Positions 30,816-47,565 of a DNA stretch of 64,000 nucleotides are shown here, piece after piece. Numbering within the stretch: position 1 is the stretch's first letter; each line of letters begins with the position of its first letter. The translations under genes and the position numbers were made by a program. The notes under the pieces were generated by a model, which saw nothing but the letters and a program-made list of their open reading frames with translations, ran no database searches and was not told the DNA's origin. Origin of the DNA: Chloroflexota bacterium (GTDB lineage: Bacteria; Chloroflexota; Dormibacteria; Dormibacterales; Dormibacteraceae); contig VBFH01000031.1 of NCBI GenBank assembly GCA_005883575.1, positions 1 to 64,000 of the forward strand, in the 5' to 3' direction.

Positions 30816-30859
30816 GGCGCGCACTCCCTTCCATAGCCCGAGCCCCATTCGGTATAACC

Positions 30860-30872
30860 GAAATGCCATTCC
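30860..30872. promoter_or_regulatory. GAAATGCCATTCC palindrome, candidate shared operator
   Basis: One mismatch from GGAATGnCATTCC. It lies in the 63-nt gap just upstream of the PuuE-like gene (minus strand), close to AT-rich TTATAC and GATAAT stretches that could serve as a -10 element, so a bound protein would block transcription. Confidence 0.45.
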
Positions 30873-32279: not shown

Positions 32280-32323
32280 AGGTCGCAGCCGAACGCCATT
32301 AGGACATACATGATCACGCATTT

Positions 32324-32336
32324 GGAATGCCGTTTC
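32324..32336. promoter_or_regulatory. GGAATGCCGTTTC palindrome, candidate shared operator
   Basis: Two mismatches from GGAATGnCATTCC, in the short interval between the divergent FAD reductase and ABC transporter ATPase genes. The flanks also match the site at 30860 when read on the opposite strand (CCGAAAxGxCATTCCA), extending the similarity beyond the core. Confidence 0.4.
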
Positions 32337-32372
32337 GGTTGTGGACGGTCGCGCTAGCATGAGGTTGCGAGC

Positions 32373-33938
32373 GTGACCACCGCAGGGAGCATCGACGGCG
32401 TCCAGCCGATTATCAGCGTCCGCAACATCTCAAAGACTTTCACTGGGAAGCGGGTGCTTGAGAACTTCGATCTCGACGTCATGCCCGGCGAGGTCCATGG
32501 CCTAGTCGGCCAGAACGGATCTGGCAAGTCGACGTTCATAAAGATCCTCGCCGGCTTTCACGCGCCAGACGCGACTTCGGATTCGTCCGTGAACGTCCGT
32601 GGGCATGACGTCACTTTTCCGATGCGTCCCGGGGAGGCCGCTCGGCTTGGCCTCGCGTTCGTCCATCAGGACCTCGGTCTGGTCGAGACCGCCAGCGTGC
32701 TGGAGAATATGCGCGTCCGCCGTTACGATCTCGGCCTGGGCTGGCGAATCAAGTGGCGTCGCGAGCGCCAGTACGTGAGGAGGATCCTCGAGGCCTTCGG
32801 GCTCGACATCGATCCGGAGGCGCAGATCTCGTCGTTGCGCCAGGCGGACAAGGCGCAGATCGCGATCGTCCGAGCGTTTGACCAGCTCCGGCAGTCCGAG
32901 CGTGGCCTTCTCGTCCTCGATGAGCCGACTCCCTACCTACCCAGAGATGGCGTCGAGCGCGTCTTCAGGACCGTGCGGGACGTCGCCGCCAGGGGCTTTG
33001 GCGTCCTGTTCGTGTCGCACCGCCTCGAGGAGGTGTTTGAGATCACCCGCCGGGTGACGACACTCCGGGATGGGAAAGTTGTCGATTGCATGCCCACTTC
33101 GTCGCTAACCGAAGAGACGCTGATCGAGCGAATTCTCGGTTTCTCGCTGGAGCAGCTCTACCCGGAGCCACATACCCCGAGGACCGAGCGAATGCTCTCT
33201 GTCAAGAACGTGTCAGGCGCCACCGTCGACGATGTGTCCTTCGACTTGCACAAGGGTGAGATCCTCGGCGTGACTGGACTGCTCGGCATGGGTTGGGACC
33301 GGCTGCCTTACCTGCTATTTGGAGCCGAAAAAGCCAGCCGTGGCCTCCTCGAGCTTGGCTCGCGGACGATCCGACTTGAGACTCTTCAGCCGCAAGGTGC
33401 GATCAAGAGCGGGATCGCTTTTCTGCCCGCAAACCGGCTCGGCGATGGCTCGCTCCAGACCGCGACGGTGAAGGAGAATGTGACTCTTGCGAAGCTTGAC
33501 GAGTTCTTCCTAAGCGGCTTCCTGCGCCTAGGGCGCGAGCGCGACACGGTCGAGCGAATCCTCTCCGATTATGACGTCCGTCCGCGCGATCCCGAGCGCG
33601 TGTTCTCGACACTGAGCGGCGGGAACCAGCAGAAGGTGTTGCTTGCCAAATGGTTTGAGACGCGTCCCAAAGTTCTGCTCCTGCACGAGCCGACTCAGGG
33701 CGTCGACGTCGGGGCGCGGGCGCAGATCTTCCGTCGGATCAGGGACGCCGCTGCGGCTGGCGCTGCCATCCTGCTGGCCACTTCAGAGTACGAAGACCTG
33801 CCTTTCCTGTGTGATCGGGTCATCGTCTTCCGGGGCGGTCGGGCGGTAGCACAGCTGCACGGTCCGTCGCTGACCACGGAAAGAATTGTCGAGCAGAGCT
33901 TCCGGGTCACTCTCCCGAGCAATCTCGCCGTCAGCTAG
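32373..33938 (+). CDS. Ribose-type ABC importer, double ATP-binding subunit
   Basis: 521 residues with two fused nucleotide-binding domains in the RbsA/MglA style. Domain 1 has an intact Walker A 'GLVGQNGSGKST' and Walker B 'GLLVLDEPTPYLP' but a degenerate signature. Domain 2 has lost Walker A ('GVTGLLGMGWDRLPYL') yet keeps 'LSGGNQQKVLLAKW' and 'LLLHEPTQGVDVGA', with His replacing the Walker B Asp. This asymmetry is common in the family. GTG start at 32373 with GAGG upstream. The matching permease and binding protein are 3.7 kb downstream, separated by enzymes probably acting on the imported compound. Confidence 0.93.
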   Translation: MTTAGSIDGVQPIISVRNISKTFTGKRVLENFDLDVMPGEVHGLVGQNGSGKSTFIKILAGFHAPDATSDSSVNVRGHDVTFPMRPGEAARLGLAFVHQDLGLVETASVLENMRVRRYDLGLGWRIKWRRERQYVRRILEAFGLDIDPEAQISSLRQADKAQIAIVRAFDQLRQSERGLLVLDEPTPYLPRDGVERVFRTVRDVAARGFGVLFVSHRLEEVFEITRRVTTLRDGKVVDCMPTSSLTEETLIERILGFSLEQLYPEPHTPRTERMLSVKNVSGATVDDVSFDLHKGEILGVTGLLGMGWDRLPYLLFGAEKASRGLLELGSRTIRLETLQPQGAIKSGIAFLPANRLGDGSLQTATVKENVTLAKLDEFFLSGFLRLGRERDTVERILSDYDVRPRDPERVFSTLSGGNQQKVLLAKWFETRPKVLLLHEPTQGVDVGARAQIFRRIRDAAAAGAAILLATSEYEDLPFLCDRVIVFRGGRAVAQLHGPSLTTERIVEQSFRVTLPSNLAVS

Positions 33939-34045
33939 CTGGAACGGTTCCTCGAAAGAAGCCGACGAAAATTGAAATGGTATACTAGCTTTGCTGTGGC
34001 CCCAGCCGCACTGAGTATCGCTGCGCACTGCAGGAGGTGCCCGGA

Positions 34046-34750
34046 GTGAAAGAGGTCTTCGGCAAGATGGTCTGCGAGACCATCGAAGAGGTGCTCAATC
34101 CTGACTGGTGCGCGGTGCTCCCAATCGATCTTCAGAACGATTTCATGCTGCCGAGCGGCGTGGTCGGCAAGGCCGGAGGCGACCTCACAGCGATGGGCGA
34201 GCTGCTTCCCAAGGCGGAGCACTTCATCAAGCGAACTCGTGATTTCGGGGTCAAGCTCGTGCACATTCGCATCGTCGACCTACCAAACGGTGAGAGCGAT
34301 TCACCCTCGTGGATCCGCTCGAAGGGCTTGATGTCCAACGTTCACGCGTTTGCGGTCGAAGGCACTTGGGGCGCCGAGTTCTGCGAGGGCTGCGAGCCCC
34401 GGCCCGGTGAGCTTGTCGTAACCAAGCATCGATCGAGCGCGTTCGTCGGTACGAACCTCGACATGATCCTCAAGAACAACGGCGTCAAGACCGTTGTAAT
34501 CATTGGCGAGCAGACGCCGGGTTGCGTCGAAGCGACCTACCGCGACGCGGCTTATTACGACTTCTACAACGTGTTGGTCGAGGACTGTGTGGCCGCCCGC
34601 GACCGCCAGCTACACGATGCGTCAATCAATATCCAGAAGGCACGCCACGACGTGGTGACCATGGATCAGGTCTTCTCCATCTGGAGCAAGTATCGCAATG
34701 GATCGCTGGTCGCTCTTGAGGCGAGCGCGGTCACTGAAATGGCGAAGTAG
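34046..34750 (+). CDS. Isochorismatase-like cysteine hydrolase
   Basis: 234 residues. The catalytic triad of cysteine amidohydrolases is visible: Asp in 'LPIDLQNDFMLPSG', Lys in 'VTKHRSSAFVGTNL' and Cys in 'GEQTPGCVEATYRDAAYYDF'. Such enzymes hydrolyse carbamates, ureidoacrylates, N-carbamoylsarcosine or nicotinamide. The GTG at 34046 lies 7-8 nt after AGGAGGT and is preferred over the GTG at 34037 that sits within that site. With the neighbouring AtuA-like/DUF4387 pair and the ABC importer it probably releases ammonia or carbamate from an imported compound. Confidence 0.88.
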   Translation: MKEVFGKMVCETIEEVLNPDWCAVLPIDLQNDFMLPSGVVGKAGGDLTAMGELLPKAEHFIKRTRDFGVKLVHIRIVDLPNGESDSPSWIRSKGLMSNVHAFAVEGTWGAEFCEGCEPRPGELVVTKHRSSAFVGTNLDMILKNNGVKTVVIIGEQTPGCVEATYRDAAYYDFYNVLVEDCVAARDRQLHDASINIQKARHDVVTMDQVFSIWSKYRNGSLVALEASAVTEMAK

Positions 34751-34815: not shown

Positions 34816-36180
34816 GTGCTAGAGCCACTTCCCGTTCTGTCCGCGACCGGCATGCTGGGGTCGGGGTTCCGCGAGGAATCGATTTACCGCGCACTCGACC
34901 TCGGCGTAAGGATGATCGGTTGCGACGCCGGAACCACCGACTTCGGACCTCATCTCCTCGCGACCGGAGATTCCCAATTCTCTCGGGCTGCTGTGAAGCG
35001 CGATACGTCGATCATCCTCGCAGCGGCCGTCCGAGCCGGCATTCCCCTGGTGATCGGGTCGGCCGGCGGAGCCGGCGGCGATGTCAACCTCGAATGGATG
35101 CGCAGGGTGCTGCTCGAAACCGCGAGGGAGCAGGGGCTGCATTTTCGGCTCGCGCTCATCCACGCCGAGCAGTCCAAGGACAAGGTGCGCGAGCTTATGC
35201 GGCAGGGGCGTGTCCTCCCGCTTCCGCCCTCGGAGCCGCTGAGCGATTTCGCGGTGGACGAGGCGCTCCACATCGTCGCGATGATGGGTGCAGAGCCGGT
35301 CCAGGCGGCCCTGGACAGCGCGCAAGTAGTCCTGGCTGGCAGGTCAAGCGACGCAGCAATCTACTCGGCGCTGCCACTGAAGCTCGGATATGCGTCCGCG
35401 GTGTGCTGGCATGCAGCCAAGATCCTTGAATGCGGCGCGGCGGCGGTCGCACAGCGCGCTGCCCCGGACAGCATGGTCGCTGTTCTGCACTCTGACTCAT
35501 TTGACGTCTTTCCGATGCGCGACGACTATCGCTGCACCCCGCAAAGCATTGCTTCGCACACGCTGTATGAGAACGTCGATCCGTTTCATCTTGTCGAGCC
35601 ATCTGGGATCCTTAACACTCTCGAATCCGAGTACGTGGCAATCGACAATCGCGCAGTCAACGTGAGTGGTTCGACATTCGAACTCGCCGAGCGATACGGT
35701 GTGAAGATCGAGGGGGCGCGGCTCGTGGGTTATTCGACGATCATCCTCGGCGCGATCCGAGACCCACTCATCATCCGTCAGCTCGACAACTGGCTGGAGC
35801 GACTGGATGAGAACTTGAAGGAGCGTTTGCGAAATACCGTCGGCGACGCTGCGCAGCATCAGATCACAGCTCGGATCTACGGCCGCGACGGCGTCATGGG
35901 CGCGCTCGAACCGCGCAAGACGATCGAGGGTCACGAGGTAATGGTCTTGTGGGATGTGATCTCCGCCAGCCAGGGGCTGTCGCACTCAATCGCCGCCAGC
36001 CTCAGCCATATGGCCGTCCACAACCCGATCCCCGAATGGGATGGGCTAATCAGTGGTGTCGCCTTCCCATTTGCGCCGTCCGAGGTCGACCGGGGCCCCG
36101 TCTACGAGTTTCACCTCAATCACGTGGTCTACCCGGATAGTCCGACGTCCCTCTTTCCGACCGATTACGAGAGCGTCTGA
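34816..36180 (+). CDS. AtuA-like (DUF1446) protein, copy 2
   Basis: 454 residues. Same ordered motifs as copies 1 and 3: 'CDAGTTDFGPHLLATG', 'VIGSAGGAGGD', 'VVLAGRSSDAAIYSALP', 'KILECGAAA' and 'YGRDGVMGALEPRK'. The first motif is the most divergent of the three ('LLATGDSQFSR' in place of 'YLGSG'). Starts with GTG at 34816, 65 nt after the cysteine hydrolase. It is followed 4 nt later by its DUF4387 partner. Confidence 0.87.
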   Translation: MLEPLPVLSATGMLGSGFREESIYRALDLGVRMIGCDAGTTDFGPHLLATGDSQFSRAAVKRDTSIILAAAVRAGIPLVIGSAGGAGGDVNLEWMRRVLLETAREQGLHFRLALIHAEQSKDKVRELMRQGRVLPLPPSEPLSDFAVDEALHIVAMMGAEPVQAALDSAQVVLAGRSSDAAIYSALPLKLGYASAVCWHAAKILECGAAAVAQRAAPDSMVAVLHSDSFDVFPMRDDYRCTPQSIASHTLYENVDPFHLVEPSGILNTLESEYVAIDNRAVNVSGSTFELAERYGVKIEGARLVGYSTIILGAIRDPLIIRQLDNWLERLDENLKERLRNTVGDAAQHQITARIYGRDGVMGALEPRKTIEGHEVMVLWDVISASQGLSHSIAASLSHMAVHNPIPEWDGLISGVAFPFAPSEVDRGPVYEFHLNHVVYPDSPTSLFPTDYESV

Positions 36181-36184
36181 TCTA

Positions 36185-36517
36185 TTGAGCACGCTCGCCG
36201 AAGTAGCGAAGCTGATCCGATCGAAAAACGCCGGGCCGTTCTGGCTGACCCTTGATGTGATGTTCGATGACCGCCAGACATACGAGGCGGTTCGCGACCA
36301 GCACGTTCTCAGTGTGGAGCTGATCAGCCGGCTGTATATGCAACCGCGCGAGTGCGTTCGTGTATTTGCCCACGACGCCGCGATGGCGATAAAGGTGAGC
36401 ATTCCGAGGCCACATAGCTCCGGGTCGCCAATGGACACCGATGTGTTCGGAGGGCAGCAATACGCTCCGCTTCTCGACCTAGCGGTGGAGTTCCCCCGCC
36501 ACCAGGGTCACAAATAG
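36185..36517 (+). CDS. DUF4387 protein, copy 2 (partner of AtuA-like 2)
   Basis: 110 residues. Signature 'RSKNAGPFWLTLDVMFDD' and 'SGSPMDTDVFGGQQYAPLLD'. The ORF track lists this frame from 36053, but the conserved domain starts at a TTG at 36185, just after the AtuA-like stop. Ribosome site weak (GAGAG), consistent with translational coupling. Function unknown; see the three-pair finding. Confidence 0.82.
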   Translation: MSTLAEVAKLIRSKNAGPFWLTLDVMFDDRQTYEAVRDQHVLSVELISRLYMQPRECVRVFAHDAAMAIKVSIPRPHSSGSPMDTDVFGGQQYAPLLDLAVEFPRHQGHK

Positions 36518-36538
36518 CTCGTGAAAGTGAGGAATCGC

Positions 36539-37384
36539 ATGAACGTTCCTAACCGCCCATCGCTCAAGACCAGACTGGCTCACGGACAGACCGTGATCGG
36601 CTGCCTCGTCGCGTTTGACGCACCCTGGCTCGTCGAAATCATCGGCCGAAGTGGTTTCGATTTCGTGACCATCGACGTCGAGCATGAAGCCTTCGACGAG
36701 CAAGGTGTTGTCAACCTGATCCGCAGCGCCGAAACTGTGGGTCTTTCATCGATCGTCCGAATGTCGATCTCGGACCGTCTGCTCGCATACCTTGACGCGG
36801 GCGTCAACGGGGTCAAGGTTCCTGATCTACGAGACCGTGACCACGCGGAGCAGCTCGTCTCGCTGACCCATTTCTACCCACAAGGCAAGCGCACGTACTA
36901 CACGATGGGGCGGGCGGCTCGCTATGGCATCGATATCGACGATCACGAGTGGATGTCTCGGGCAAACGACGAGATGTTTCTGATGGCGATGATTGAGGAC
37001 ATCGGTGTCGTTGAGCAGCTCGACGACATACTGGACGTCGAGGAAATCGACGCCTTCCACGTCGGCCCACACGACCTCGCCCAGTCGATGGGTTTTCCGG
37101 CACCCGGAGCGCTCGATGACGTGATCAAGGGTGTGGTGCACAGATGCCGCGACGCAGGCAAGTACGTATCGGTTGGCGTCGTCACGCCCTGGAACCTCGT
37201 CAAGGCCGACAGCTGGCGACGCGAGGGTTGTCAGATCCTCACTGTCGGCTCGTCCTGGGTCGTCTCACACAGCATGGTCGAGATGCACAACCAGCTGCGC
37301 GGCGCGATCCCGGCAGATCAGCAATCTCGGGTCGAGCCGACTGCGGTCAGTCGAAGCTCATACCTGGCACCGAATACCCCGTAG
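36539..37384 (+). CDS. HpcH/HpaI-family aldolase
   Basis: 281 residues, class II pyruvate/oxaloacetate aldolase or lyase fold. 'FDFVTIDVEHEAFDEQGVVN', 'GVNGVKVPDLRDRDHAEQLV', 'MIEDIGVVEQLDDILDVEEI' and 'DAFHVGPHDLAQSMGFP' correspond to the metal-binding and substrate loops of 2,4-dihydroxyhept-2-ene-1,7-dioate aldolase and relatives. The ATG at 36539 has AGTGAGGA 7 nt upstream and is preferred to the GTG at 36521. It follows the DUF4387 gene by 21 nt and would cleave a hydroxy-oxo acid, perhaps the product of the preceding enzymes. Confidence 0.88.
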   Translation: MNVPNRPSLKTRLAHGQTVIGCLVAFDAPWLVEIIGRSGFDFVTIDVEHEAFDEQGVVNLIRSAETVGLSSIVRMSISDRLLAYLDAGVNGVKVPDLRDRDHAEQLVSLTHFYPQGKRTYYTMGRAARYGIDIDDHEWMSRANDEMFLMAMIEDIGVVEQLDDILDVEEIDAFHVGPHDLAQSMGFPAPGALDDVIKGVVHRCRDAGKYVSVGVVTPWNLVKADSWRREGCQILTVGSSWVVSHSMVEMHNQLRGAIPADQQSRVEPTAVSRSSYLAPNTP

Positions 37385-37621: not shown

Positions 37622-38659
37622 TTGGCGGAGCCTAGGAACTCTGAAGTCGACTCGGTTACCCTGCCCCGGGGCGCCTCAACCATCAGGCGCTTCGCTAGTG
37701 GATTTCGGGTTCCCAACCCAGCTGAACTGGCCGACCGATTCGGCATCCTCGTGGCCTGGGCAGTAATCATCGCCATGTTTTCGGTCGTTGAACCGAATAC
37801 GTTCTTCACTTTTGCAAATTTAAGAATCGTTCTCGGGACGCAGGCGGTGTTGCTCATCCTGGCCCTGGCCCTGCTGCTCCCGTTGACGGTAGGCGAGTTC
37901 GACCTCTCTGTGACGGGGGCACTCGGGATAGCGTTGATCTTGATCGGCTACCTCAACATCATTCGAGGTTGGTCGATTCTGGCAGCCATCGCAGCCGCCC
38001 TGCTGTCGGGAGTAGTGATCGGTCTGGTGAATGTCTTTTTCGTCATGGTCGTCAGGGTGGAGTCGATCGTCGTGACGCTCGGTTCGGGAACGATGTGGCT
38101 GGGGGTCGGATATGGCATCTGGGGCGCGAACATCTCGGGTGTTTCTGACGCCCTCGTTTCTGTAACCAGAAATAACTTCATCCTTGATGTGCCGTTCGCC
38201 TTCTGGTACGGGCTTCTTCTGACTCTCCTCTTCTGGTATCTCTACGCGCTGACGCCACTTGGTCGCTACCTGTACTTCGTCGGCGCCAACCGCCAGGTTT
38301 CACGGCTATCCGGAATTCCGGTAAGTGCGATACGTGCGGGCTCGCTCATGGCTTCCGCAATAGTCAGCTCGATCGCAGGCATCATATTGGCCGGGGTCCT
38401 CGGTGGCTCGGGCCCGAACATCGCCGCCGGCTATCTGCTGCCAGCTTTTGCTGCGGTGTTCCTGGGCGCGACGGCGATCAGCCCGGGCCGCTTCAACCCG
38501 CTGGGAACGTTCATCGCGGTGTACTTCCTCATCACTGGCATCACCGGGCTCGAGTTGCTGGGATTCAGCGGGTGGGTCGAAAACGTCTTCTACGGAGCAT
38601 CACTGGTTCTGGCGGTGGCGCTTTCACGCCTCGCCGCACGACGGCGCTTCACGCAATGA
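37622..38659 (+). CDS. Ribose-type ABC importer, permease subunit
   Basis: 345 residues with about nine hydrophobic segments in the RbsC/BPD_transp_2 pattern. 'LPLTVGEFDLSVTGALGIAL' and 'GNRQVSRLSGIP'-like 'GANRQVSRLSGIPVSAIRAG' (the cytoplasmic coupling loop) and 'LLPAFAAVFLGATAISPGRF' are typical. TTG start at 37622 with GGGAGG upstream. The 237-nt gap before it contains a weak copy of the recurring palindrome (GGAACGTGATTCT at 37489), suggesting its own promoter. It pairs with the ATPase at 32373 and the binding protein downstream. Confidence 0.9.
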   Translation: MAEPRNSEVDSVTLPRGASTIRRFASGFRVPNPAELADRFGILVAWAVIIAMFSVVEPNTFFTFANLRIVLGTQAVLLILALALLLPLTVGEFDLSVTGALGIALILIGYLNIIRGWSILAAIAAALLSGVVIGLVNVFFVMVVRVESIVVTLGSGTMWLGVGYGIWGANISGVSDALVSVTRNNFILDVPFAFWYGLLLTLLFWYLYALTPLGRYLYFVGANRQVSRLSGIPVSAIRAGSLMASAIVSSIAGIILAGVLGGSGPNIAAGYLLPAFAAVFLGATAISPGRFNPLGTFIAVYFLITGITGLELLGFSGWVENVFYGASLVLAVALSRLAARRRFTQ

Positions 38660-38734
38660 GAACCGCTGTGCCGCCTTGACGCACCTGGTTATCCCGTACG
38701 GCAACCCGAAATACATGAGATGGAGGATGGAGTG

Positions 38735-39919
38735 ATGGTAGGTATCGGCAGAGTCCCTGGGCGGTGGCGGCGTCCACTGCTCCTGGGCATGGTCGTGGCT
38801 CTCCCGTTAGCCGCATGCGGAGGAAGCACACCCACGACCACTTCCCAGGGCATGAGCGCCGATGCCCTCGCCCAGGTCAAAGCGCTGTATCAAAAGGAAT
38901 CCGGGCCTTCGCAGTTCCAGGGCGGTCCCGCGTTCGATGCCACCAAGGCCAAGGGCAAGAAGGTCTGGTGGATCAGCAACCTTGGCAGCAACTCATTCAC
39001 ACCACTCATTTACAACCCGTTCAAGGAAGCAATGAACGCCGCCGGCGTACAGGTCACGTTCTTCGATGGTCAGGGCTCCGCGCAAGAAGAGATCCATGGG
39101 ATGCAGAACGCAATCGCGGCAAAGGCCGACTTGATCGTGGACCAGGACTACCCGGTTGCGCAGACGCGAGCTGGGTTCGACGCCGCCAAAAAGGCAAACA
39201 TTCCAGTTCTCGAGTGGGCGAACAACGATGAAGGCGCTGGCCCGACGCCCAACGGCGGTGTCGCCGAGGTCACATACGCCTACAAGAACGCTGGCGTGCT
39301 GATGGCTGACGCGATCATGACCATATCGGACGGGAAGCCGGTCAACGCCGTCTTCATCAACAGCTCGGACGTTGAGCCAGCCGGAGAAGTTGGCGACGGC
39401 CTAAAGGCAGAATTCCAGAAGTACTGTCCATCTGCATGCAAGGTCACGACCAAGGACGTCGTGATCGCTGATTGGAGCACCAAGCTGGCGGTAACGGCCA
39501 GCACTTCGGTGGCTGACACCAGCGTGAACTGGATCGTTCCGGCTTTCGATCCGGAAACTGCCTTTGTCGACCCGGCGATCATTCAGGCTGGCGCGGCCAG
39601 CCGCGTCAAGGTCTGCGCATACAACGCGACCAAAGGCAACGTCGACCGGCTGAAGCAGAATGGCGACCCGCTGACATGTGACGTCGGATCGCCGCTTGGT
39701 TGGAGTGGGTATGGGATCGCCGACGATGCACTCCGCCTTCTATCGGGCGTCACACCGATCTGCAAGGCTCCGCCGCCGTGCGGAGAAGGCGAAAAGATCC
39801 CTCAGCGAATCTTCGACCGCACCAACATCCAGCAGTACGATCTAAACGCATCGGACGCCACCTGGTATGGACCGACAGACTACAAGGCTGCATACAAGAA
39901 GCTTTGGGGAATTGGCTAG
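38735..39919 (+). CDS. ABC importer substrate-binding lipoprotein
   Basis: 394 residues. The N-terminus has an Arg-rich n-region, a hydrophobic core and lipobox 'LPLAACGG', so it is exported and lipid-anchored. The mature part reads as a type I periplasmic sugar-binding fold ('KVWWISNLGSNSFTPLIYNP', 'VTFFDGQGSAQEEIHGMQNA', 'ADLIVDQDYPVAQTRAGFD'). The ATG at 38735 follows TGGAGG by 8 nt. Ligand unknown; given the intervening enzymes it need not be a sugar. Followed by a strong terminator. Confidence 0.92.
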   Translation: MVGIGRVPGRWRRPLLLGMVVALPLAACGGSTPTTTSQGMSADALAQVKALYQKESGPSQFQGGPAFDATKAKGKKVWWISNLGSNSFTPLIYNPFKEAMNAAGVQVTFFDGQGSAQEEIHGMQNAIAAKADLIVDQDYPVAQTRAGFDAAKKANIPVLEWANNDEGAGPTPNGGVAEVTYAYKNAGVLMADAIMTISDGKPVNAVFINSSDVEPAGEVGDGLKAEFQKYCPSACKVTTKDVVIADWSTKLAVTASTSVADTSVNWIVPAFDPETAFVDPAIIQAGAASRVKVCAYNATKGNVDRLKQNGDPLTCDVGSPLGWSGYGIADDALRLLSGVTPICKAPPPCGEGEKIPQRIFDRTNIQQYDLNASDATWYGPTDYKAAYKKLWGIG

Positions 39920-39945: not shown

Positions 39946-39977
39946 GAGAAAGGGCCCCGAATCCGGGGCCCTTTCTC
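39946..39977 (+). terminator. Rho-independent terminator, probably bidirectional
   Basis: A 14-bp stem GAGAAAGGGCCCCG / CGGGGCCCTTTCTC with a 4-nt AATC loop, lying 27 nt after the binding-protein stop and 20 nt before the end of the convergent DUF4387 gene. The A/T-flanked stem could stop transcription from both sides. Confidence 0.85.
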
Positions 39978-39997: not shown

Positions 39998-40324
39998 TCA
40001 GGAACGCTCGGCAGGTACCTCCAGAGATATCAAAGGTGCCCACATCTGCGAACCGAACACAGATCGATCGCCGAAGTCGCCGGAAGAGATATCGCGGACG
40101 AGGTTGAACTTGATCACCCGACCGGCTGGGTAGTCATGGATGGAGAGAATCCTGCTTTCGGGCACGTGGAATAGCTTCGCGATCCGCGCCTTGGTGAACA
40201 CCTTGGCGCGGCGGACCATCTCGAAGGTGGCCTCGTCCTTGAAGACCACATCGAACGTGATCAGGTACGGGCCGGCGTTCTTGCTGAAAAGGAACTCCAC
40301 AAGGTCGATCAACTTGCGGTTCAC
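39998..40324 (-). CDS. DUF4387 protein, copy 3 (partner of AtuA-like 3)
   Basis: 108 residues. Signature 'FSKNAGPYLITFDVVFKD' and 'SGDFGDRSVFGSQMWAPLIS'; the C-terminal motif departs from copies 1 and 2 ('GAQQYAPLL', 'GGQQYAPLL'). GTG at 40324 overlaps the AtuA-like stop by 4 nt (GTGA). It is the last gene of a coupled chain from 47455. Confidence 0.85.
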   Translation of the reverse strand: MNRKLIDLVEFLFSKNAGPYLITFDVVFKDEATFEMVRRAKVFTKARIAKLFHVPESRILSIHDYPAGRVIKFNLVRDISSGDFGDRSVFGSQMWAPLISLEVPAERS

Positions 40325-41709
40325 GGTTCGGCTCCGACCTTGAAGTATTCGATCGGAAACAGACTGGTCAACTCGGATGGTTTCGCCAGCTCGGCGACGT
40401 GCAGGACGCTGAACCGGTAGACCGCGCCCGTATCGTTCACCAGCGGCGAGAACGGGAACGCCACGTGCGCCGTGCGAGTCTTTGCCCCGGAATAAGGGAA
40501 TCCGATCATGCGCGCCTCCAGTAGGGCGGCGACATCGTGGGCGACCTCCTGGCTGGGGCCCAAAATCTGCGCCAGGATCCCCACCTCATGGCCTGGATGG
40601 TCACGTTCTGGTTCCATCTCGCCCATCACGCCGTCGCGGCCGTAGACGATCCAGTTCAGGCTCACGCCCGGCTGGTCGGCAAGTGCCAGGGTCTGCTCCG
40701 TACAGCCGGCCATGTATTCGTCGAGCTTGGCGATCAGAAAAGGGTCGCGGATGCCGCCCAGCACGATCGAGCGGAAGCCCACACGCTCCGCTCCCTCGAA
40801 CCTGATCGTCGGCCGCTGGTGGACGTGGAACTGTGTCCCGCGCACCAGGGTCGACCTGTTACCGGTTTCCTCGAAGACCACGTCTGAAAAGTCGAGGACT
40901 CCCGTCGGCTCACCTTGCAGATAGGGGTGTTCGACTTCATAAACCATGTGCGCGGCTACCGAGAATGGCGTCACTTTGCGAGCCGGATTCGGTGCCACGA
41001 CCTCGAACTGGTCGCCGTCGACAATCGCCATAAGGCAATCCCGTCCGGTGGGCGGCACTGCGCTCATGGCCCCGCATTCCAGGATCTTGCCCATGTGCAA
41101 GGCGGGACCTGCCTCGATGCCGGCCCTGACCGGGTAGGCGGCAAAGATTGCGCTGTCGCAAGCTCGTCCCGCGAGCACCACCTGTGCGCCATGGTCCATT
41201 GCCTCGATGAACGGTTCGACGCCCATCTGGCCGACGATCCTCTCGCACGCATCCACGCGTTCGGCCGTCAGCTCCGGGACGCCGGGCATGGGCCGTACCT
41301 TTCCTGCCGCCAGGCGCTCCTTCAAATAGCGCTTTTCCTGCTGCGAGTGCACCAGCGCGAGGGTGAAGCTCATCCCCTTCTCGCGGGCGATTTCTTTAAT
41401 GATCTCGTGCGCCCAGGCCAGGTGTGGATCGGCTCCGGCGCCTCCCGCGTTGCCGATCAGCACCGGCAGCCCGTTGGCCAGCCCTGCCTCGATGATCAGC
41501 GACATGTCGCGCTTCATCGTCGCGCGAGAGTGGTAGGGCCTCCCGCTCCCAAGGTAGTAGGGGCCCATGTCCGTAGAACCCGAGTCGGCGCCAATCACGT
41601 CCAGCCCGCTCGCCACTGCGCGCTGCAGGCTGTCGGCGTTTACGCCATAGCCGATCGAGCCGCCCGGGCTGACGACGCGGATTGCCCGTGCCCGGCTAGG
41701 CGCCGTCAT
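40321..41709 (-). CDS. AtuA-like (DUF1446) protein, copy 3
   Basis: 462 residues with 'ADSGSTDMGPYYLGSGRPYH', 'VLIGNAGGAGAD', 'VVLAGRACDSAIFAAYP', 'HMGKILECGAM' and 'YGRDGVMGEMEPER'. Its ATG overlaps the HyuB stop by 4 nt, so it is translated with a hydantoinase-like subunit, unlike the other two copies. Confidence 0.88.
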   Translation of the reverse strand: MTAPSRARAIRVVSPGGSIGYGVNADSLQRAVASGLDVIGADSGSTDMGPYYLGSGRPYHSRATMKRDMSLIIEAGLANGLPVLIGNAGGAGADPHLAWAHEIIKEIAREKGMSFTLALVHSQQEKRYLKERLAAGKVRPMPGVPELTAERVDACERIVGQMGVEPFIEAMDHGAQVVLAGRACDSAIFAAYPVRAGIEAGPALHMGKILECGAMSAVPPTGRDCLMAIVDGDQFEVVAPNPARKVTPFSVAAHMVYEVEHPYLQGEPTGVLDFSDVVFEETGNRSTLVRGTQFHVHQRPTIRFEGAERVGFRSIVLGGIRDPFLIAKLDEYMAGCTEQTLALADQPGVSLNWIVYGRDGVMGEMEPERDHPGHEVGILAQILGPSQEVAHDVAALLEARMIGFPYSGAKTRTAHVAFPFSPLVNDTGAVYRFSVLHVAELAKPSELTSLFPIEYFKVGAEP

Positions 41710-43331
41710 TCAGCGGTGACGTAGCCGAACTCGATGTCGCGCCGGCGCTGCTCAGGGTCCCGGGCCTCGGGCGGCCCGAAGCCGCCGCCGCCCGGCGTGC
41801 GCATGCTCAAGACCTCGCCGGGCTGCAACTCGGTGCGACCCTTTGGCGGCACGCTGCCGCCGCCTGACCTGGTCAGTATGTTCGGCGCGGCCGGATGTCC
41901 GCCATGCCGGCCCAGGGGTGGGTGCGTAACCCGGTCGGTCATCATCGAGAGCACCGCGGATTTTTTCGAGCGGAGCTCGATGTCGGTCGCCACCCCGAGG
42001 CCGCCGCGATACGTGCCGTCGCCGCCCGAGTTGGGAACCAGCGCGCGACGCCTGAAGAGCAGCTCCGTCGTTGACTCGACGATCTCCGCCGAGGTGGTGC
42101 CCGCGTTCGATGGCCACGGGGCGGCGGACAAACCGTCCCGATTGTTCTTGGCGCCCATTCCGCCGGAGAGCAGGAAGGAGCTCCCCCACTTTCTGCCGTC
42201 CGGAAACATCCCGCTGATGACAAATCGCGGACAAGGAGAGCCGGAATCAGCCAGGACTCGATCGGGGAGGATCTGGGCCAGGGCGCCGAATACCGTCGCC
42301 GAGATCGAGTGGCCGATGATCTGGCGCGAAGCCACGGCGGCGGGGAAGCGACAGTTGATGATCGTCCCCTCGGGTGCGACCATCGTGATCGGTCGGTAGG
42401 AGCCCTGGTTGTTGGGGACGTCGGGCAGCAGGGCGCACTTGATCGGATAGACAGTCATCGCGTAGGCGTGGTTGAAGGAATCGTTGATAGCCCATTGCGT
42501 CTGCGGTGACGACCCCGTCCAGTCGACGACGATCGATTCATCTTCGATCGTGACCGCCGCCCGAAGGACCAGGGGACCATCGACGCCATCGAGCTCCATC
42601 TCGTGCCTGTACGTTCCGTTGGGGACCTCCCGGATGGCGGCCCGCATCGCGCTCTCAGACCTCGTCTCGATCTCGTTGAAGATCGAGGCAGGATCGTCAA
42701 GCGACATCTCGTCGAGCAGATCTGTGAGCCGCTGGGCACCGACATCGAGGGTCGCCAGCTGAGCGTAGATGTCACCTCGCACCTGCTCCGGAAGGCGGAC
42801 GTTGGCAAGAACGATCGAAAGCAGGTCATCGTTAACCTTGCCTCGATTGCGAATCTTGGAGAGCGGGATTCGAAGACCCTCTTCGAAGAGCTCACGGCTG
42901 TCGGCTGACCAGATGGCTCCGCCGATGTCGGCCCAATGGCCGATACACCCGACGTAGGCGACGATGCGGCCGCTCCGAAACACCGGCCGCACCATGGTCA
43001 TGTCAGGCAGGTGCCCGGTGCCCAGCCACGGGTCGTTGGTGCCCAGGACGTCACCGGGTTGCCATGTGGAGGCCGGAAATCGCTCGAGCGCGGCTTGCAT
43101 CGTGCGCGGAAGCGTCCCCACGAACGACGGCATGCTCCGCTGCGATTGGCTGACGGAGCCTCCCTGGCTGTCGAGCAGAACGACCCCGAAGTCGAATGCC
43201 TCGCGGATGATGGGCGAGAACGCGGTCCGCATCAACGTGACCTCGGCCTCGTCGATGACGGCCTGAAGGCGGCCCCACACGATCTCGAGCGTGACCGGAT
43301 CCAGGCTGAGTTGAGACTTCACCGCTTTCAT
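41706..43331 (-). CDS. Hydantoinase/oxoprolinase subunit B (HyuB), copy 2
   Basis: 541 residues. 'LDPVTLEIVWGRLQAVIDEA' at the N-terminus, 'VLGTNDPWLGTGHLPDMTMV', 'GCIGHWADIGGAIWS', 'VVDWTGSSPQTQWAIND' and 'MRTPGGGGFGPPEARDPEQ' at the end are the HyuB landmarks. It is shorter than copies 1 (597) and 3 (579). It is separated from its HyuA by the aminotransferase gene, with which it overlaps by 4 nt (ATGA). Confidence 0.9.
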   Translation of the reverse strand: MKAVKSQLSLDPVTLEIVWGRLQAVIDEAEVTLMRTAFSPIIREAFDFGVVLLDSQGGSVSQSQRSMPSFVGTLPRTMQAALERFPASTWQPGDVLGTNDPWLGTGHLPDMTMVRPVFRSGRIVAYVGCIGHWADIGGAIWSADSRELFEEGLRIPLSKIRNRGKVNDDLLSIVLANVRLPEQVRGDIYAQLATLDVGAQRLTDLLDEMSLDDPASIFNEIETRSESAMRAAIREVPNGTYRHEMELDGVDGPLVLRAAVTIEDESIVVDWTGSSPQTQWAINDSFNHAYAMTVYPIKCALLPDVPNNQGSYRPITMVAPEGTIINCRFPAAVASRQIIGHSISATVFGALAQILPDRVLADSGSPCPRFVISGMFPDGRKWGSSFLLSGGMGAKNNRDGLSAAPWPSNAGTTSAEIVESTTELLFRRRALVPNSGGDGTYRGGLGVATDIELRSKKSAVLSMMTDRVTHPPLGRHGGHPAAPNILTRSGGGSVPPKGRTELQPGEVLSMRTPGGGGFGPPEARDPEQRRRDIEFGYVTAE

Positions 43332-44242
43332 GAGTAGATCGCAGTGCCCTCGGAACGTGCCATCTCGACGAAAGCGGAGTAAAGAGTCTGGGTCGCACGG
43401 CCTGCCGTGCCGTGGCCGATGCGCCGACCTTCGACCTCGATGACAGGCGTGATCTCGGTCCCGGTGCCGGTCAGGAAAACCTCGTCCGCGTTGAGTACTT
43501 CAGTGACCGTGATGTCACGCTCGACGACCCGGAACCCCTGGGCGGCCGCAAGCTCCATCACGGTGCGCCGTGTGATGCCCTCCAGGCATGCCTTGGACCA
43601 TGGGGTCACGACCTGTCCCTCCTTGACGATGAACAGGTTGGCGGCGCTTGCTTCCGCAAGGAAGCCATCCGCGTCCAGCATGAGGGCGTCGTCGGCGCCG
43701 CGGCGAACGGCCTCGAGGCGGGCCAGGAGGTTGTTACCGTAGTTCAGGCTTTTGATCTTAGGATCCAGCGCATCGCTGTTGATCTGCCGCACGCTCGAGA
43801 CGACCAACCTCTGACCGCGCATATCCGCGGGTGAGATTGGACCGCCGAGCAGGATCACATTTGGCTGGTCGGAACAAAAGCGCGGGTCGAGCCGCGGTGG
43901 AATGCGGTTGCCGCGGGTGACAATCGGCCGAAGGTGGAAGTTGTCGCGGATCTCGTTGACCCGAAGCCAATCGAGGACCACGGCCGTGAACTCGGTCGGT
44001 GACATCCCGATGTTGATCTCAAACGCGTTCGCCGATTCATAAAGGCGTTTGACGTGCTGGTCGAGGCGGAAGACCGAGCCGGCGTAGACGCGAACTCCCT
44101 CAAAGACACCGTCGGCGAAATTCAGCCCGCTGTCGAAGACGGAGATCGTCGCTTCTTCGCTTGGAACCAACCGACCATTGATGTAGACCTTCAACGATGA
44201 GGATCGAGTGCGGGCTTCGTCTAGTGCTTTCACGTCTTTCAT
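43328..44242 (-). CDS. Branched-chain-type class IV aminotransferase
   Basis: 304 residues, PLP fold type IV. 'KVYINGRLVPSEEATISVFD' and 'GVFEGVRVYAGSVFRLDQHV' open the protein; the PLP Lys is in 'KIKSLNYGNNLLARLEA' and the phosphate-binding loop in 'LEGITRRTVMELA' and 'FLTGTGTEITPV'. Usual length for IlvE-like or D-amino acid transaminases. The ATG at 44242 shares one base with the HyuA stop (TGATG); the ORF-track TTG at 44245 is the alternative. It is inserted between the HyuA and HyuB genes of one complex. Confidence 0.9.
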   Translation of the reverse strand: MKDVKALDEARTRSSSLKVYINGRLVPSEEATISVFDSGLNFADGVFEGVRVYAGSVFRLDQHVKRLYESANAFEINIGMSPTEFTAVVLDWLRVNEIRDNFHLRPIVTRGNRIPPRLDPRFCSDQPNVILLGGPISPADMRGQRLVVSSVRQINSDALDPKIKSLNYGNNLLARLEAVRRGADDALMLDADGFLAEASAANLFIVKEGQVVTPWSKACLEGITRRTVMELAAAQGFRVVERDITVTEVLNADEVFLTGTGTEITPVIEVEGRRIGHGTAGRATQTLYSAFVEMARSEGTAIYS

Positions 44243-46374
44243 CAAGTTCGTCTTCCCCCTCGTCGCGAATTGCCGTTATCGGGCGTCGGTTTGTGGCTTT
44301 CCGCGAAGCTAACCAGCACGTTTCCGAGGTCGTCGACACGCCACACAGCCGACGGACCGACGACGATCGTCGACTCGCGCTCCTCGATCAGCGCTGGGCC
44401 CTTGACGTCGTTGTCCGCAACCAGCTGGTAGCGGTCGAACACGGCGCAGTCGACGTAATCGTCGAGCTCCGGAAAATAGGTCCGGCGCTGAGATTTGAGC
44501 GCCCCCCCGCGTGCCGACGTCGGAAAGGTCACCGAGACCTGTTTTGACTCAACCCTGGCCGTCAGACGCCAGTGCACGCACTCCACGCCCGCAGTCTCCA
44601 GGCTGGTGCCGAATCGTTCCCTGTAAAGCCGGTTGAAGCTGCTCCGAAGCTCCGCCTCGATCCCCGGCCCGAGCTCGGCTTGGGTGAGCGGGACCGGGAC
44701 CTCGTAGCCCTGCCCGACGTATCGCATGTCGACTCGCTTTTCGATGTCCGCAGAGCTGACATCAGCCCCGCCTTTCTTAAGCATCTCGCGAGCCCGGGCT
44801 TCCATTTCGGCCAGGCGCGCGACGACCGGCGCCCAGTCAACTCTGCCAAGCCGGCCCAGATGGGTCCAGGCGAGATCCACCGAAAAGGGTGAAACGAGAA
44901 AACCGAGTGCGGACGCGACACCGGCGGCGGGCGGGCAGATCAGCCGCTTGATGCCAAGGTGCCGGGCAACCTCGTACGCATGCACGGGGCCGGCACCTCC
45001 GAACGCGACGAGGGTGAAGCGGCGCGGGTCGTGTCCCCGCTCGACGACATGGGTGCGCATGGCCAGCGCCATCTGCCGGTTGACGATGTCGAACATGCCG
45101 CGCGCACACTGCTCCGCGCTCATTCCGACTTCGTCTCCCAGTTGGGCGAGCGCCCGCTCCGCGTTCTCTGCGTCCAGCTCCATGGAGCCGCCGAGAAAGT
45201 AATCTGGATTCAGATATCCGAGATGGAGGTCGGCGTCGGTGACGGTGGCCGCCGTGCCTCGGCCGTAGCACGCCGGGCCAGGGTCGGCGCCGGCGCTTAT
45301 CGGGCCCACCTTGAGCAGCCCCAGCGCACCTTTGTGGCCGATCGATCCGCCGCCGGTTCCGATCTCGATCATCTCGATTGTCGGCAGCTTGAGGGGCAGG
45401 CCGCTGCCGCGCTTGAAGCGCGCGACCCTGGCCACCTCCAACTCGGGAACCTGGAGGGGAACACCGCTCTCGATCAGGCTCACCTTGGCGGTGGTGCCCC
45501 CCATGTCAAACGAGATCAGGTTATGAAGGCCGAGCCGGCGGCCGAAGAAGCCGGCAGCGCTGACCCCACCCGCAGGGCCGGACTCGACGAGCTGGATGGC
45601 GAACTCGGCCGCCTGCCGGGCAGATGTCACGCCGCCCTGCGACATCATCACATAAAGGCGGTCTGGAGCTCCGAGGTCACGGAAGCCTTGCTCGAGGTGC
45701 GCGAGGTATTTGCGCGCGAGGGGGCGTACAAATGCGTTGGCGGCCGCCGTTGAAGTTCTTTCGTACTCCCGCCACTCGGGCGCGATGTCCGACGAAAGCG
45801 TGATGTCGATGCCTGGCGCTTCGGCCGCGACGATCTCACCGAGGCGACGTTCATGCGCTGGATTGGCGTATGCGTGGAGAAGGCAGACGGCGACGCTCTC
45901 GACGCCGAGCTCACGCAGCCTCCGTGACAGCCTCACTGCCTCCGCCTCATCGAGAGGCTCCAGTTCGGTGCCGTCGGCGAGCACGCGCTCGCCAATCTCA
46001 AAGCGGAGCGGTCGCGGGATGAGGGGTTCGGGGCGCTCGAGCTCCAGGTCGTACAGGTCATAGCGCGCCTCTCGACCGATCTCCAGCACGTCGCGGAAAC
46101 CAACCGTCGTTATGAGAGCGGTGCGTGCGCCGCGGCGCTCAATCAGGCTGTTCGCAACCAGCGTCGTTCCATGAATGATGCGCACGATGTCTGGAAATGG
46201 AATCTTCTCGCGATGAGCGAATCGCACGATCCCGTCGAGCACCCCGAGCGATGGATCCGCCGGCGTGGTCAGATGCTTGAACACCGTGACCACGCCGTCA
46301 TCGATGGCGACGAAGTCGGTAAAAGTCCCTCCGACGTCGATTCCGACGGCGCGGCTCAGGTCTCGGGCACCCAA
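44242..46374 (-). CDS. Hydantoinase/oxoprolinase subunit A (HyuA), copy 2
   Basis: 710 residues. 'AVGIDVGGTFTDFVAIDDG', 'IHGTTLVANSLIERRGA', 'LISFDMGGTTAKVSLIESG', 'IEIGTGGGSIGH' and 'LVAFGGAGPVHAYEVA' are the ATP-binding landmarks. Start is TTG at 46374, 16 nt after the threonine aldolase stop, without a strong ribosome site. The C-terminal tail is basic and extends beyond copy 1. Interacts with HyuB copy 2. Confidence 0.9.
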   Translation of the reverse strand: MGARDLSRAVGIDVGGTFTDFVAIDDGVVTVFKHLTTPADPSLGVLDGIVRFAHREKIPFPDIVRIIHGTTLVANSLIERRGARTALITTVGFRDVLEIGREARYDLYDLELERPEPLIPRPLRFEIGERVLADGTELEPLDEAEAVRLSRRLRELGVESVAVCLLHAYANPAHERRLGEIVAAEAPGIDITLSSDIAPEWREYERTSTAAANAFVRPLARKYLAHLEQGFRDLGAPDRLYVMMSQGGVTSARQAAEFAIQLVESGPAGGVSAAGFFGRRLGLHNLISFDMGGTTAKVSLIESGVPLQVPELEVARVARFKRGSGLPLKLPTIEMIEIGTGGGSIGHKGALGLLKVGPISAGADPGPACYGRGTAATVTDADLHLGYLNPDYFLGGSMELDAENAERALAQLGDEVGMSAEQCARGMFDIVNRQMALAMRTHVVERGHDPRRFTLVAFGGAGPVHAYEVARHLGIKRLICPPAAGVASALGFLVSPFSVDLAWTHLGRLGRVDWAPVVARLAEMEARAREMLKKGGADVSSADIEKRVDMRYVGQGYEVPVPLTQAELGPGIEAELRSSFNRLYRERFGTSLETAGVECVHWRLTARVESKQVSVTFPTSARGGALKSQRRTYFPELDDYVDCAVFDRYQLVADNDVKGPALIEERESTIVVGPSAVWRVDDLGNVLVSFAESHKPTPDNGNSRRGGRRT

Positions 46375-46390
46375 ATGCCGGCGGGCCTGC

Positions 46391-47455
46391 TCATGTCGCG
46401 ACCGCGGCGGGGCTCAGCACATGTTTCGTGGCCGCAATCGCCGACTCGGCCGCCGCGTCGTCGATCTCGCAGTGCGTCATCATCTTGAAGACATTGGGTT
46501 GTCGCAGCAGGACGAGCACTCCCCGCTCGGCGAGCGCGTCGACGACCTCGGCTGCGGGTCTTCCGCTGGGTGCCGTGGAGACCCTCACCTGGTTCGTCTG
46601 TGGGTGGTTGACCTCGATCCCCGGGATGTCTCTGATACTGTCCGCGATGAGTCTCGCTCGCCGCTGGTCGTCGGCAAGGCGTTCGACCATATTGTCGAGG
46701 GCATAAAGCCCGGCGGCGGCGAAAAATCCTCCGCGGTGCATGCCGGACGCGCCCAGCCACTTGAGTCCACGCATCCTGGCTTCTTCAATATTTTTCACCG
46801 ACCCGCACAGCAGAGCGCCCAACGGAGCGCTCAGCCCTTTGTTGAGGCTAACCGTCACAGTGTCGAGCGGCTGCGTAAATGTGCGGATGGCCAGGCCGGT
46901 TGCGACTGCCGCATTGTGTATGCGAGCGCCGTCCATATGCAGATGGCATCCATTCCGGTGAGCAAGTTCGGACAGCGACTCCACATACTCGAGCGGCACG
47001 ATTGTGCCGCCGTGATCGTTGTGAGGTGATTCGAGCGCGATGAACGAGGTGCGAGGACGAGCCGGCCCGCGCCACTCGGTGAGGATCGCCTCTACCTCCG
47101 CCAGCGGCATGGCGCCTGTTTCAGAGACAATCAATCGTGGATAGACTCCGCAGACGTAAGCTAGATTCCATCCTTCGATCCAGACCTGGTGAGCATCGGC
47201 CTCGAGGATGACCTGGTCTCCCCTCACGGTCGAGATCATCATCGCGAGCAGGTTGGCGAGGCTGGCGGTGAACACGAAAAGCCCGGCTTCCATGCCCGTC
47301 ATTTCGGCGGCGCGCTTCTCGAGTTCGTTCACGTTCTGGTCCTCGCCACGCTGAGGCCAGCCTATGTCGGCCGCTTGCATAGCTCTCCACATCTCGGCGG
47401 TAGGTCTTGTCACGACCTCGGAGCGCAGATCGATGCGGCGCCCTTGCGAAATCAT
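46391..47455 (-). CDS. Threonine aldolase-family PLP lyase
   Basis: 354 residues of the fold type I beta-eliminating lyase/low-specificity L-threonine aldolase family. 'IDLRSEVVTRPTAEMWRAM' at the N-terminus, 'EADAHQVWIE', 'LHMDGARIHNAAVATG' with the PLP-ring Asp, and the PLP Lys in 'TVSLNKGLSAPLGALLCGS'. It would split a beta-hydroxy amino acid into glycine and an aldehyde. First gene of the coupled chain with HyuA, aminotransferase, HyuB, AtuA-like and DUF4387; its start codon is 5 nt from a palindrome-like site at 47460. Confidence 0.92.
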   Translation of the reverse strand: MISQGRRIDLRSEVVTRPTAEMWRAMQAADIGWPQRGEDQNVNELEKRAAEMTGMEAGLFVFTASLANLLAMMISTVRGDQVILEADAHQVWIEGWNLAYVCGVYPRLIVSETGAMPLAEVEAILTEWRGPARPRTSFIALESPHNDHGGTIVPLEYVESLSELAHRNGCHLHMDGARIHNAAVATGLAIRTFTQPLDTVTVSLNKGLSAPLGALLCGSVKNIEEARMRGLKWLGASGMHRGGFFAAAGLYALDNMVERLADDQRRARLIADSIRDIPGIEVNHPQTNQVRVSTAPSGRPAAEVVDALAERGVLVLLRQPNVFKMMTHCEIDDAAAESAIAATKHVLSPAAVAT

Positions 47456-47565
47456 TCTTGGAAGAGCATTCTAAACTGGCTCGATAAGGTGTCAAGCGTA
47501 GGCGGCGCGTCCTTCGCCATGTGCGCGGATGGATTCACACGTGTGCGAGAAAAGGAAGTCAGGGG

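Follow-up and report, generated by a model that had tools for sequence, protein, structure and literature searches.

A threonine-aldolase-like enzyme (TA), the HyuA subunit, a class IV aminotransferase (AT), the HyuB subunit, an AtuA-family protein and a DUF4387 protein are encoded in this order on the minus strand of the 64,000-nucleotide stretch of Dormibacteraceae DNA analyzed here (the window), and the complete order recurs in another genus of the same family. The enzymes all belong to known types, but together the six genes look like an undescribed route that would open a cyclic nitrogen compound taken up by the cell, remove its amino group and cleave its carbon skeleton; no description of it was found in the literature and databases searched. 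There is about an even chance that the six genes constitute one catabolic operon, in which a cyclic amide would be opened with ATP, followed by PLP-dependent processing and the splitting of a tertiary-hydroxy acid.

All six open reading frames are present, comprising TA (46391..47455, 354 aa), HyuA (44242..46374, 710 aa), AT (43328..44245, 305 aa from a TTG or 304 aa from an ATG start), HyuB (41706..43331, 541 aa), AtuA (40321..41709, 462 aa) and DUF4387 (39998..40324, 108 aa). Their Pfam assignments (PF01212; PF05378/PF01968/PF19278; PF01063; PF02538; PF07287; and PF14330, respectively) all exceed the curated cut-offs. As a sequence-only reading of this DNA had described, the genes are separated by a 16-nt gap and then by overlaps of 1-4 nt: the gap lies between TA and HyuA, the HyuA-AT overlap is 1 or 4 nt depending on the choice of ATG or TTG start, and the AT-HyuB, HyuB-AtuA and AtuA-DUF4387 overlaps are 4 nt each. 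Upstream of TA, a promoter-like site (TTGACA-16-TAGAAT; 47468..47495, minus strand) matches 11 of 12 consensus positions and ends about 13 nt before the start codon, a near-leaderless arrangement; it is the sole match in the window, where 0.07 would be expected. In the related locus (L006, 806-833) both hexamers and the downstream GCTCTTCCA are identical and lie at the same place before TA. At the other end, a perfect 14-bp hairpin (39946..39977) separates the convergent ends of the DUF4387 gene and an ABC binding-protein gene, with RNA folding z-scores of -5.6 and -5.7 on the two strands, and is probably a bidirectional terminator; strong hairpins of different sequence occupy the same place after DUF4387 in L006. 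Because both genomes have an identical promoter before TA and a strong hairpin behind DUF4387, the six genes are probably transcribed as one unit, in line with the coupled unit proposed earlier.

The second genome with the complete order is a Dormibacteraeota metagenome-assembled genome (S106_Bin_1, contig CATPBP010000276.1; hereafter G371). Its six proteins share about 60-82% amino-acid identity with those of the window, the spacing differs at several junctions while the gene order is unchanged, and synteny extends over about 20 kb around the chain. The search for the same order in other genomes thus places the exact chain in one relative, and in one only; a lack of conservation in all relatives, which would have spoken against the sequence-only reading, is therefore not what is observed. 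Since the order is kept in another genus within a syntenic block, the chain is neither a chance row of genes nor a misassembly. An assembly or binning artefact could have been suspected, as the window comes from a fragmented metagenome-assembled genome of 127 contigs and congeners are without the DUF4387 and AT genes; this explanation is rejected as having a negligible probability, given the same order with diverged junctions in an independent genome of another genus, frames that are all open and an even window composition (59-66% GC). The bacterium carrying the chain is of soil type. Among 400 genomes of the phylum and 110 of the class, only G371 was found to contain the exact chain besides the window; it was also the sole orthologue in a GTDB-wide scan with AT, which used two short peptide patterns that diverged copies would escape, and the second match of that scan lies on a contig without Hyu neighbors. 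Among plasmid records, none reaches 80% coverage of the six-protein query. A widespread exact chain is therefore rejected on the plasmid, GTDB-wide, phylum and class scans, whereas partial modules (HyuAB with AT, and HyuAB with AtuA/DUF4387) are found repeatedly in Pseudomonadota and in other members of the phylum.

The HyuA and HyuB proteins resemble the two subunits of ATP-dependent hydrolases of the hydantoinase/oxoprolinase/lactamase type, HyuA being the ATP-binding subunit and HyuB (PF02538, 515.5 bits; 82% identity to its G371 counterpart) the metal-binding coupling subunit. The reference for their active-site residues is the caprolactamase CapAB (PMC8453981). HyuA contains the ASKHA-type motifs DVGGTFTD (D13) and DMGGTTAK (D290), which align with D11 and D295 of CapA, and D13, K33 and D290 together align with CapA ATP-site residues; the Asp-His-Asp-His metal tetrad is formed in HyuB by D47, H107, D110 and H132, equivalent to D41, H99, D102 and H124 of CapB. 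In two-subunit make-up, ATP motifs and tetrad the pair thus matches CapAB and the N-methylhydantoinase HyuAB, but it scores below the caprolactamase equivalogs NF050156/NF050157 (508.9 and 235.1 bits against a cut-off of 1000) and has an aminotransferase gene between its subunit genes. The sequence-only reading had allowed for carboxylation by HyuAB. In a rival explanation, HyuAB would be an ATP-dependent carboxylase of the acetone/acetophenone type, acting on a ketone made by AT or TA, and the product would go to the AtuA lyase. Both carboxylases are homologues of HyuAB (E-values as low as 7e-80), and hydrolases and carboxylases have the metal tetrad in common (PMC8453981). Hydrolysis is nevertheless likelier, because solved hydrolases rank ahead of the carboxylases, the nearest relatives of HyuA being N-methylhydantoinase (7hk5) and then caprolactamase (6yra). 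In length, HyuB (541 aa) is also near CapB (581), the homologous carboxylase subunits being much longer (684-776), and PF08882, the acetone carboxylase gamma-type subunit, has no match in the window's own genome, a weak argument given that the control genomes are equally without a match. We therefore regard a carboxylase as improbable.

HyuA and HyuB genes had been described as normally adjacent, and they are direct neighbors in nearly all other loci examined; in the window and G371, AT lies between them. This separation is rare rather than unique, since in G390, a further locus, the two are separated by another, short gene. AT belongs to the class IV enzymes of branched-chain/D-amino-acid type (PF01063, 197.6 bits), with K165, E198 and the motif GTGTEITPV, and exceeds the cut-off of the branched-chain aminotransferase family TIGR01122 (ilvE_I; 256.1 against 245.55) while remaining below that of the related PRK08320 (303.4 against 363). 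Its score in TIGR01122 would suit a bystander, namely a branched-chain aminotransferase copy that landed between HyuA and HyuB, is tolerated through translation coupling and has no substrate in common with HyuAB. The G390 gene likewise indicates that the junction tolerates insertions, and in a tree the HyuAB-associated aminotransferases found elsewhere do not form one clade, so that a common origin for them is not supported. Against a bystander, AT is kept at 74-75% identity in exactly the same place in two genera, although both genomes encode further class IV aminotransferases (two in the window's genome, another in G371), and HyuAB has become associated with a class IV aminotransferase independently elsewhere. 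AT also differs from branched-chain aminotransferases at two substrate-pocket positions, having F43 and H104 where the other aminotransferases of the genome have aligned tyrosines; in E. coli IlvE the two pocket tyrosines are Y31 and Y95. A bystander is thus unlikely, though the acquisition of class IV aminotransferases may be unrelated to HyuAB. The presence of the two other class IV enzymes also led us to reject AT as the sole housekeeping branched-chain aminotransferase. In the caprolactam pathway, an aminotransferase step likewise follows ring opening. Clusters in which an aminotransferase is next to or near HyuA/HyuB occur on a Methylobacterium aquaticum plasmid and in Shinella and Antarctobacter (L048, L049 and L050), but there it lies outside the HyuA-HyuB pair, belongs to other clades and is about 31-32% identical to that of the window, and the clusters are without TA and AtuA/DUF4387. 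Amino-acid transporters are encoded nearby in these three clusters.

TA, the first gene of the chain, encodes a PLP enzyme (PF01212, 242.9 bits; 74% identity to its G371 counterpart) of the GntG/L-allo-threonine aldolase group, scoring 279 against a cut-off of 230 in NF041359, with the PLP lysine K206 in the motif SLNKGLSAPLG. The nearest solved structure is L-allo-threonine aldolase (2fm1/1jg8), while the score for low-specificity L-threonine aldolase, NF007825, is below the cut-off (210.8 against 312).

By sequence and predicted structure, the AtuA/DUF4387 pair is homologous to CmlAB, a citramalate lyase of two subunits (PDB 9ERQ/9EVF). AtuA matches CmlA (9erq_A; phmmer, 1.1e-111) over residues 7-442 and is 41% identical to it, and DUF4387 (PF14330, 97.2 bits), whose gene adjoins that of AtuA with a 4-nt overlap, matches CmlB (9erq_B; phmmer, 4.4e-17). 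The predicted structures were compared using Foldseek, giving TM-scores of 0.85/0.86 for AtuA to 9evf_A and 0.92/0.95 for DUF4387 to 9evf_B, the only matches with E <= 0.001. The predicted last step is thus likely to break a C-C bond in a tertiary hydroxy acid. A hand-over to an "AtuA-like pair" had been proposed earlier; this scheme fits the families, but the pair is not one of unknown function. The substrate is not necessarily citramalate, because AtuA shares no more than 41% identity with CmlA and three divergent pairs are encoded in the window (37% for the second AtuA and 33% for the third). In the methylaspartate cluster of E. coli, where it had been unclear what becomes of citramalate (PMC4682846), the AtuA protein shares 91% identity with the solved CmlA. 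CmlA and CmlB are the same two subunits encoded by adjacent genes; their neighbors are glutamate mutase, methylaspartate ammonia-lyase and fumarase, whereas the window pair follows HyuAB and two PLP enzymes. Tertiary hydroxyls are the site of action of other C-C lyases in the AtuA family: ThnQS of anaerobic naphthalene degradation cleaves a tertiary beta-hydroxy acid (PMC12016498) and AtuA of acyclic terpene utilization has been assigned as 3-hydroxy-3-isohexenylglutaryl-CoA lyase (PMC4847356), but these act on CoA-thioesters and have unrelated neighbors. In clusters of Variovorax (L016), Cupriavidus (L051) and the genome G137 (L054, in the order HyuA-HyuB-AtuA-DUF4387), HyuAB adjoins the pair or lies one gene away; they differ in being without AT or TA, with a dehydrogenase and a TTT transporter instead in Variovorax and Cupriavidus. 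A literature search on DUF4387 returned no papers, nor did the papers searched include a description of the CmlAB structures.

The meaningful unit is larger than six genes and spans a syntenic block at 27592-48186, in which two more CmlAB-type pairs are accompanied by an ABC transporter, an IclR regulator and further hydrolases. The importer genes, the isochorismatase-like hydrolase and the regulator are conserved in the G371 block. On the plus strand lie a sugar-type ABC periplasmic binding protein (38720..39919, PF13407, 73% identity in G371), probably part of the importer for the block, a BPD_transp_2 permease (37622..38659, PF02653, 74%), an HpcH/HpaI-type aldolase (36521..37384, PF03328, 74%), the second AtuA/DUF4387 pair (34816..36517, with AtuA at 34816-36180 and the DUF4387 domain at about 36194-36481; PF07287 and PF14330, syntenic in G371), an isochorismatase-family hydrolase of the biuret/ureidoacrylate/N-carbamoylsarcosine amidohydrolase group (34037..34750, PF00857, 78%) and a double ABC ATPase of a sugar-type transporter, RbsA/XylG-like below the cut-offs (32373..33938, PF00005, 74%). 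The minus strand encodes an FAD_binding_2 dehydrogenase, TcuA-like below the cut-off (30879..32360, 66%), a PuuE-allantoinase-like hydrolase of polysaccharide-deacetylase fold (29892..30869; TIGR03212, 308 bits against a cut-off of 424.6; 1z7a/3cl6; 82%), the IclR-family regulator (28959..29849, PF01614/PF09339, 79%) and the third AtuA/DUF4387 pair (27284..28962, with AtuA at 27592-28962 and DUF4387 at 27284-27667). A second, directly adjacent HyuA/HyuB pair (22333..26183, plus strand) belongs to the wider conserved neighborhood, its 67% and 78% identical orthologues lying beside the third DUF4387 on G371 contig C65 (L105). The genome has three HyuB genes and three AtuA/DUF4387 pairs, and every one of them is located within this one 64-kb window. 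This content bears on whether the operon might be biosynthetic, producing for example a beta-hydroxy or unusual amino acid. Threonine aldolases are able to work in reverse, as synthetic enzymes, and the GntG subfamily of TA is named for guanitoxin biosynthesis; the annotated neighbors, though, include no ligase, NRPS or PKS gene, and the importer, IclR regulator, hydrolases and several C-C lyases are a catabolic make-up, which leaves a biosynthetic role highly unlikely.

For the catabolic operon we infer the following reaction types, their order and the import step. The single promoter before TA would drive all six genes, and the adjacent ABC transporter would bring in a cyclic amide of lactam or hydantoin type. 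This would be hydrolyzed by HyuA and HyuB, with ATP-dependent activation of the amide by HyuA and hydrolysis at the metal site of HyuB. AT would then transfer the amino group of the freed amino acid to a 2-oxo acid, TA would cleave a beta-hydroxy-alpha-amino acid to glycine and an aldehyde, and the CmlAB-type lyase would act on a citramalate-like acid with a tertiary hydroxyl, giving pyruvate and a fragment of acetate type. Of the pathway proposed in the sequence-only reading, ring opening, deamination and hand-over fit the families, while carboxylation is less likely and the unit is bigger than six genes. One substrate for all activities in order could not be derived. A dedicated pathway for a cyclic amide with a tertiary hydroxyl, such as the lactam derived from a 4-hydroxy-4-methylglutamate-like amino acid, is a long shot; here HyuAB would open the ring, AT would form the 2-oxo acid while physically part of the HyuAB complex, with direct hand-over, and the CmlAB-type lyase would yield pyruvate units.

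The proposed operon ties the large, mostly unassigned HyuAB family to the AtuA/DUF4387 family, whose members the 2025 citramalate lyase structure makes likely C-C lyases. Because HyuAB lies beside AtuA/DUF4387 in distantly related bacteria as well, identifying a single substrate could assign a function to one step in several phyla, and the chain offers a pathway open to experiment in a lineage that has received little study.

The chain runs on the minus strand from 47455 down to 39998 and comprises genes for a threonine-aldolase-like PLP enzyme (TA, 46391-47455), HyuA, a class IV aminotransferase (AT, 43328-44245), HyuB, AtuA and DUF4387. The earlier claim of six minus-strand open reading frames is borne out, TA and HyuA lying 16 nt apart and the genes at the remaining junctions overlapping by 1-4 nt, and the family names of all six proteins are backed by Pfam and NCBIfam profiles. 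HyuA starts at a TTG codon, and AT has two possible starts (TTG at 44245 or ATG at 44242). Each enzyme of the chain is of a known kind; as far as searched, the combination of the six genes and the position of the AT gene between those for HyuA and HyuB are new.

The conservation in a relative that the sequence-only reading had called for is found in the Dormibacteraeota MAG S106_Bin_1 (G371), a member of the same family but of a different genus: it carries all six genes in unchanged order. They lie within a syntenic block that begins at the third AtuA pair (window 27592) and reaches one gene past TA (48186), at ~60-82% amino-acid identity, and on a second G371 contig the synteny carries on with the terminal part of the third DUF4387 (85%) and with orthologues of the second HyuA/HyuB pair (22333-26183; 67% and 78%). 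A promoter-like TTGACA-16-TAGAAT element, matching 11 of 12 consensus positions, precedes TA; a match of this type occurs once in the whole window, against 0.07 expected. In G371, the hexamers, their spacing and their distance to TA all equal those of the window and the bases TTAGAATGCTCTTCCA are identical too; the spacer and upstream sequence have diverged. In both genomes only ~13 nt separate the end of the -10 hexamer from the TA start codon (window 47455-47495), which would imply a near-leaderless mRNA. A 14-bp perfect hairpin lies 3′ of DUF4387, towards a convergent ABC binding-protein gene, and G371 has strong hairpins at the same place, unrelated to that of the window. Given the promoter-like site, the hairpin and the gene overlaps, a single transcript covering all six genes would be the simplest reading, and at the sequence level conservation and predicted co-transcription are well supported.

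The distribution is patchy. Of 400 phylum genomes, 14 have DUF4387; none of six congeners has it, and within the sampled family it is limited to this genome and G371. The AT orthologue, sought in 400 genomes of the phylum and 110 of the class, turned up in these two alone. The genes have probably been gained horizontally or lost often; base composition is even. Window 14332-59575 is a dense catabolic island: none of the three HyuB genes or three AtuA/DUF4387 pairs of the genome (3.6 Mb) lies outside it, and it also contains two RraA-like, two HpcH/HpaI-like, two CoA-transferase III and one PEP-mutase/ICL family genes. In a genome from another family of the class (G159, locus L099, 2793-14159), other parts of this island recur in rearranged form: IclR, MaoC, CoA-transferase and 2-oxoacid dehydrogenase parts accompany an AtuA/DUF4387 pair that shares 66-71% identity with the second pair of the window (34816-36517).

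AlphaFold models of AtuA and DUF4387, built from alignments of five sequences each (mean pLDDT 81 and 85), each have one significant PDB match, namely chains A (TM 0.85) and B (TM 0.92) of 9EVF, a citramalate lyase structure containing ADP and pyruvate. Sequence searches agree with the fold, matching AtuA to 9erq_A (CmlA, 1.1e-111) and DUF4387 to 9erq_B (CmlB, 4.4e-17), where the CmlA/CmlB identity is taken from the deposited structure names. The AtuA proteins of the window's three pairs are 41, 37 and 33% identical to CmlA, so the pairs may serve different substrates. Elsewhere in the family, ThnQS (PMC12016498, citing partly unpublished results) and AtuA of terpene degradation (PMC4847356) act at a tertiary hydroxyl. 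E. coli plasmid pC16EC0292-1 carries the DUF1446/DUF4387 pair of the enterobacterial methylaspartate cluster (locus L011, 6998-8682), whose AtuA is 91% identical to solved CmlA over the CmlA portion printed in the alignment. The fate of citramalate in this cluster was reported as unclear (PMC4682846), and the enterobacterial pair apparently fills this missing step.

The nearest solved relatives of HyuAB are N-methylhydantoinase and the ATP-dependent caprolactamase CapAB, with carboxylases clearly weaker, so that the favoured prediction is an enzyme that hydrolyses a cyclic amide at the expense of ATP; HyuB Asp47, His107, Asp110 and His132 occupy the caprolactamase metal positions, and HyuA has the ATP-site residues. 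AT retains the class IV lysine and passed one BCAT model, and its Phe43 and His104 stand at positions where IlvE carries tyrosines, a difference that points to another substrate. In TA the PLP lysine is conserved, and the protein groups with GntG/L-allo-threonine aldolases. The function of the six genes can be proposed at the level of reaction type, with about an even chance of being correct.

Partial modules occur elsewhere, in examples selected among the hits of searches that started from proteins of the window. HyuAB accompanies a class IV aminotransferase in Methylobacterium aquaticum (AT-HyuA-HyuB) and in Shinella and Antarctobacter (HyuB-HyuA-TPP enzyme-SDR-BCAT), and AtuA/DUF4387 in Variovorax, Cupriavidus and the compared genome G137 (HyuA-HyuB-AtuA-DUF4387); the window chain therefore joins two associations found separately. 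These aminotransferases are ~31-32% identical to AT and fall in different clades, so aminotransferases have become linked to HyuAB on more than one occasion. A second G137 locus combines AtuA, DUF4387, two isochorismatase-like genes and HyuB/HyuA akin to the window's second pair. In G390, of the same phylum, another gene (L062, 7879-8400) lies between HyuA and HyuB, encoding a 173-aa protein that by eye is apparently PPOX/FMN-type.

Also conserved in the block are a complete sugar-type ABC transporter, an HpaI-type aldolase, a TcuA-like flavoprotein, an IclR regulator, a PuuE-allantoinase-like hydrolase and an isochorismatase-family amidohydrolase with biuret, ureidoacrylate and N-carbamoylsarcosine amidohydrolases among its relatives. 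A divergent protein of 221 aa encoded at 47521-48186 has no Pfam match; judged by eye, its sequence is suggestive of an EthD-like dimeric alpha/beta barrel, and it has counterparts in G371 (64%) and in L099 (36%) next to related catabolic genes. No one known compound accounts for all parts of the block, which, judged from its gene content, looks like a system for importing and degrading a ring compound that contains nitrogen.
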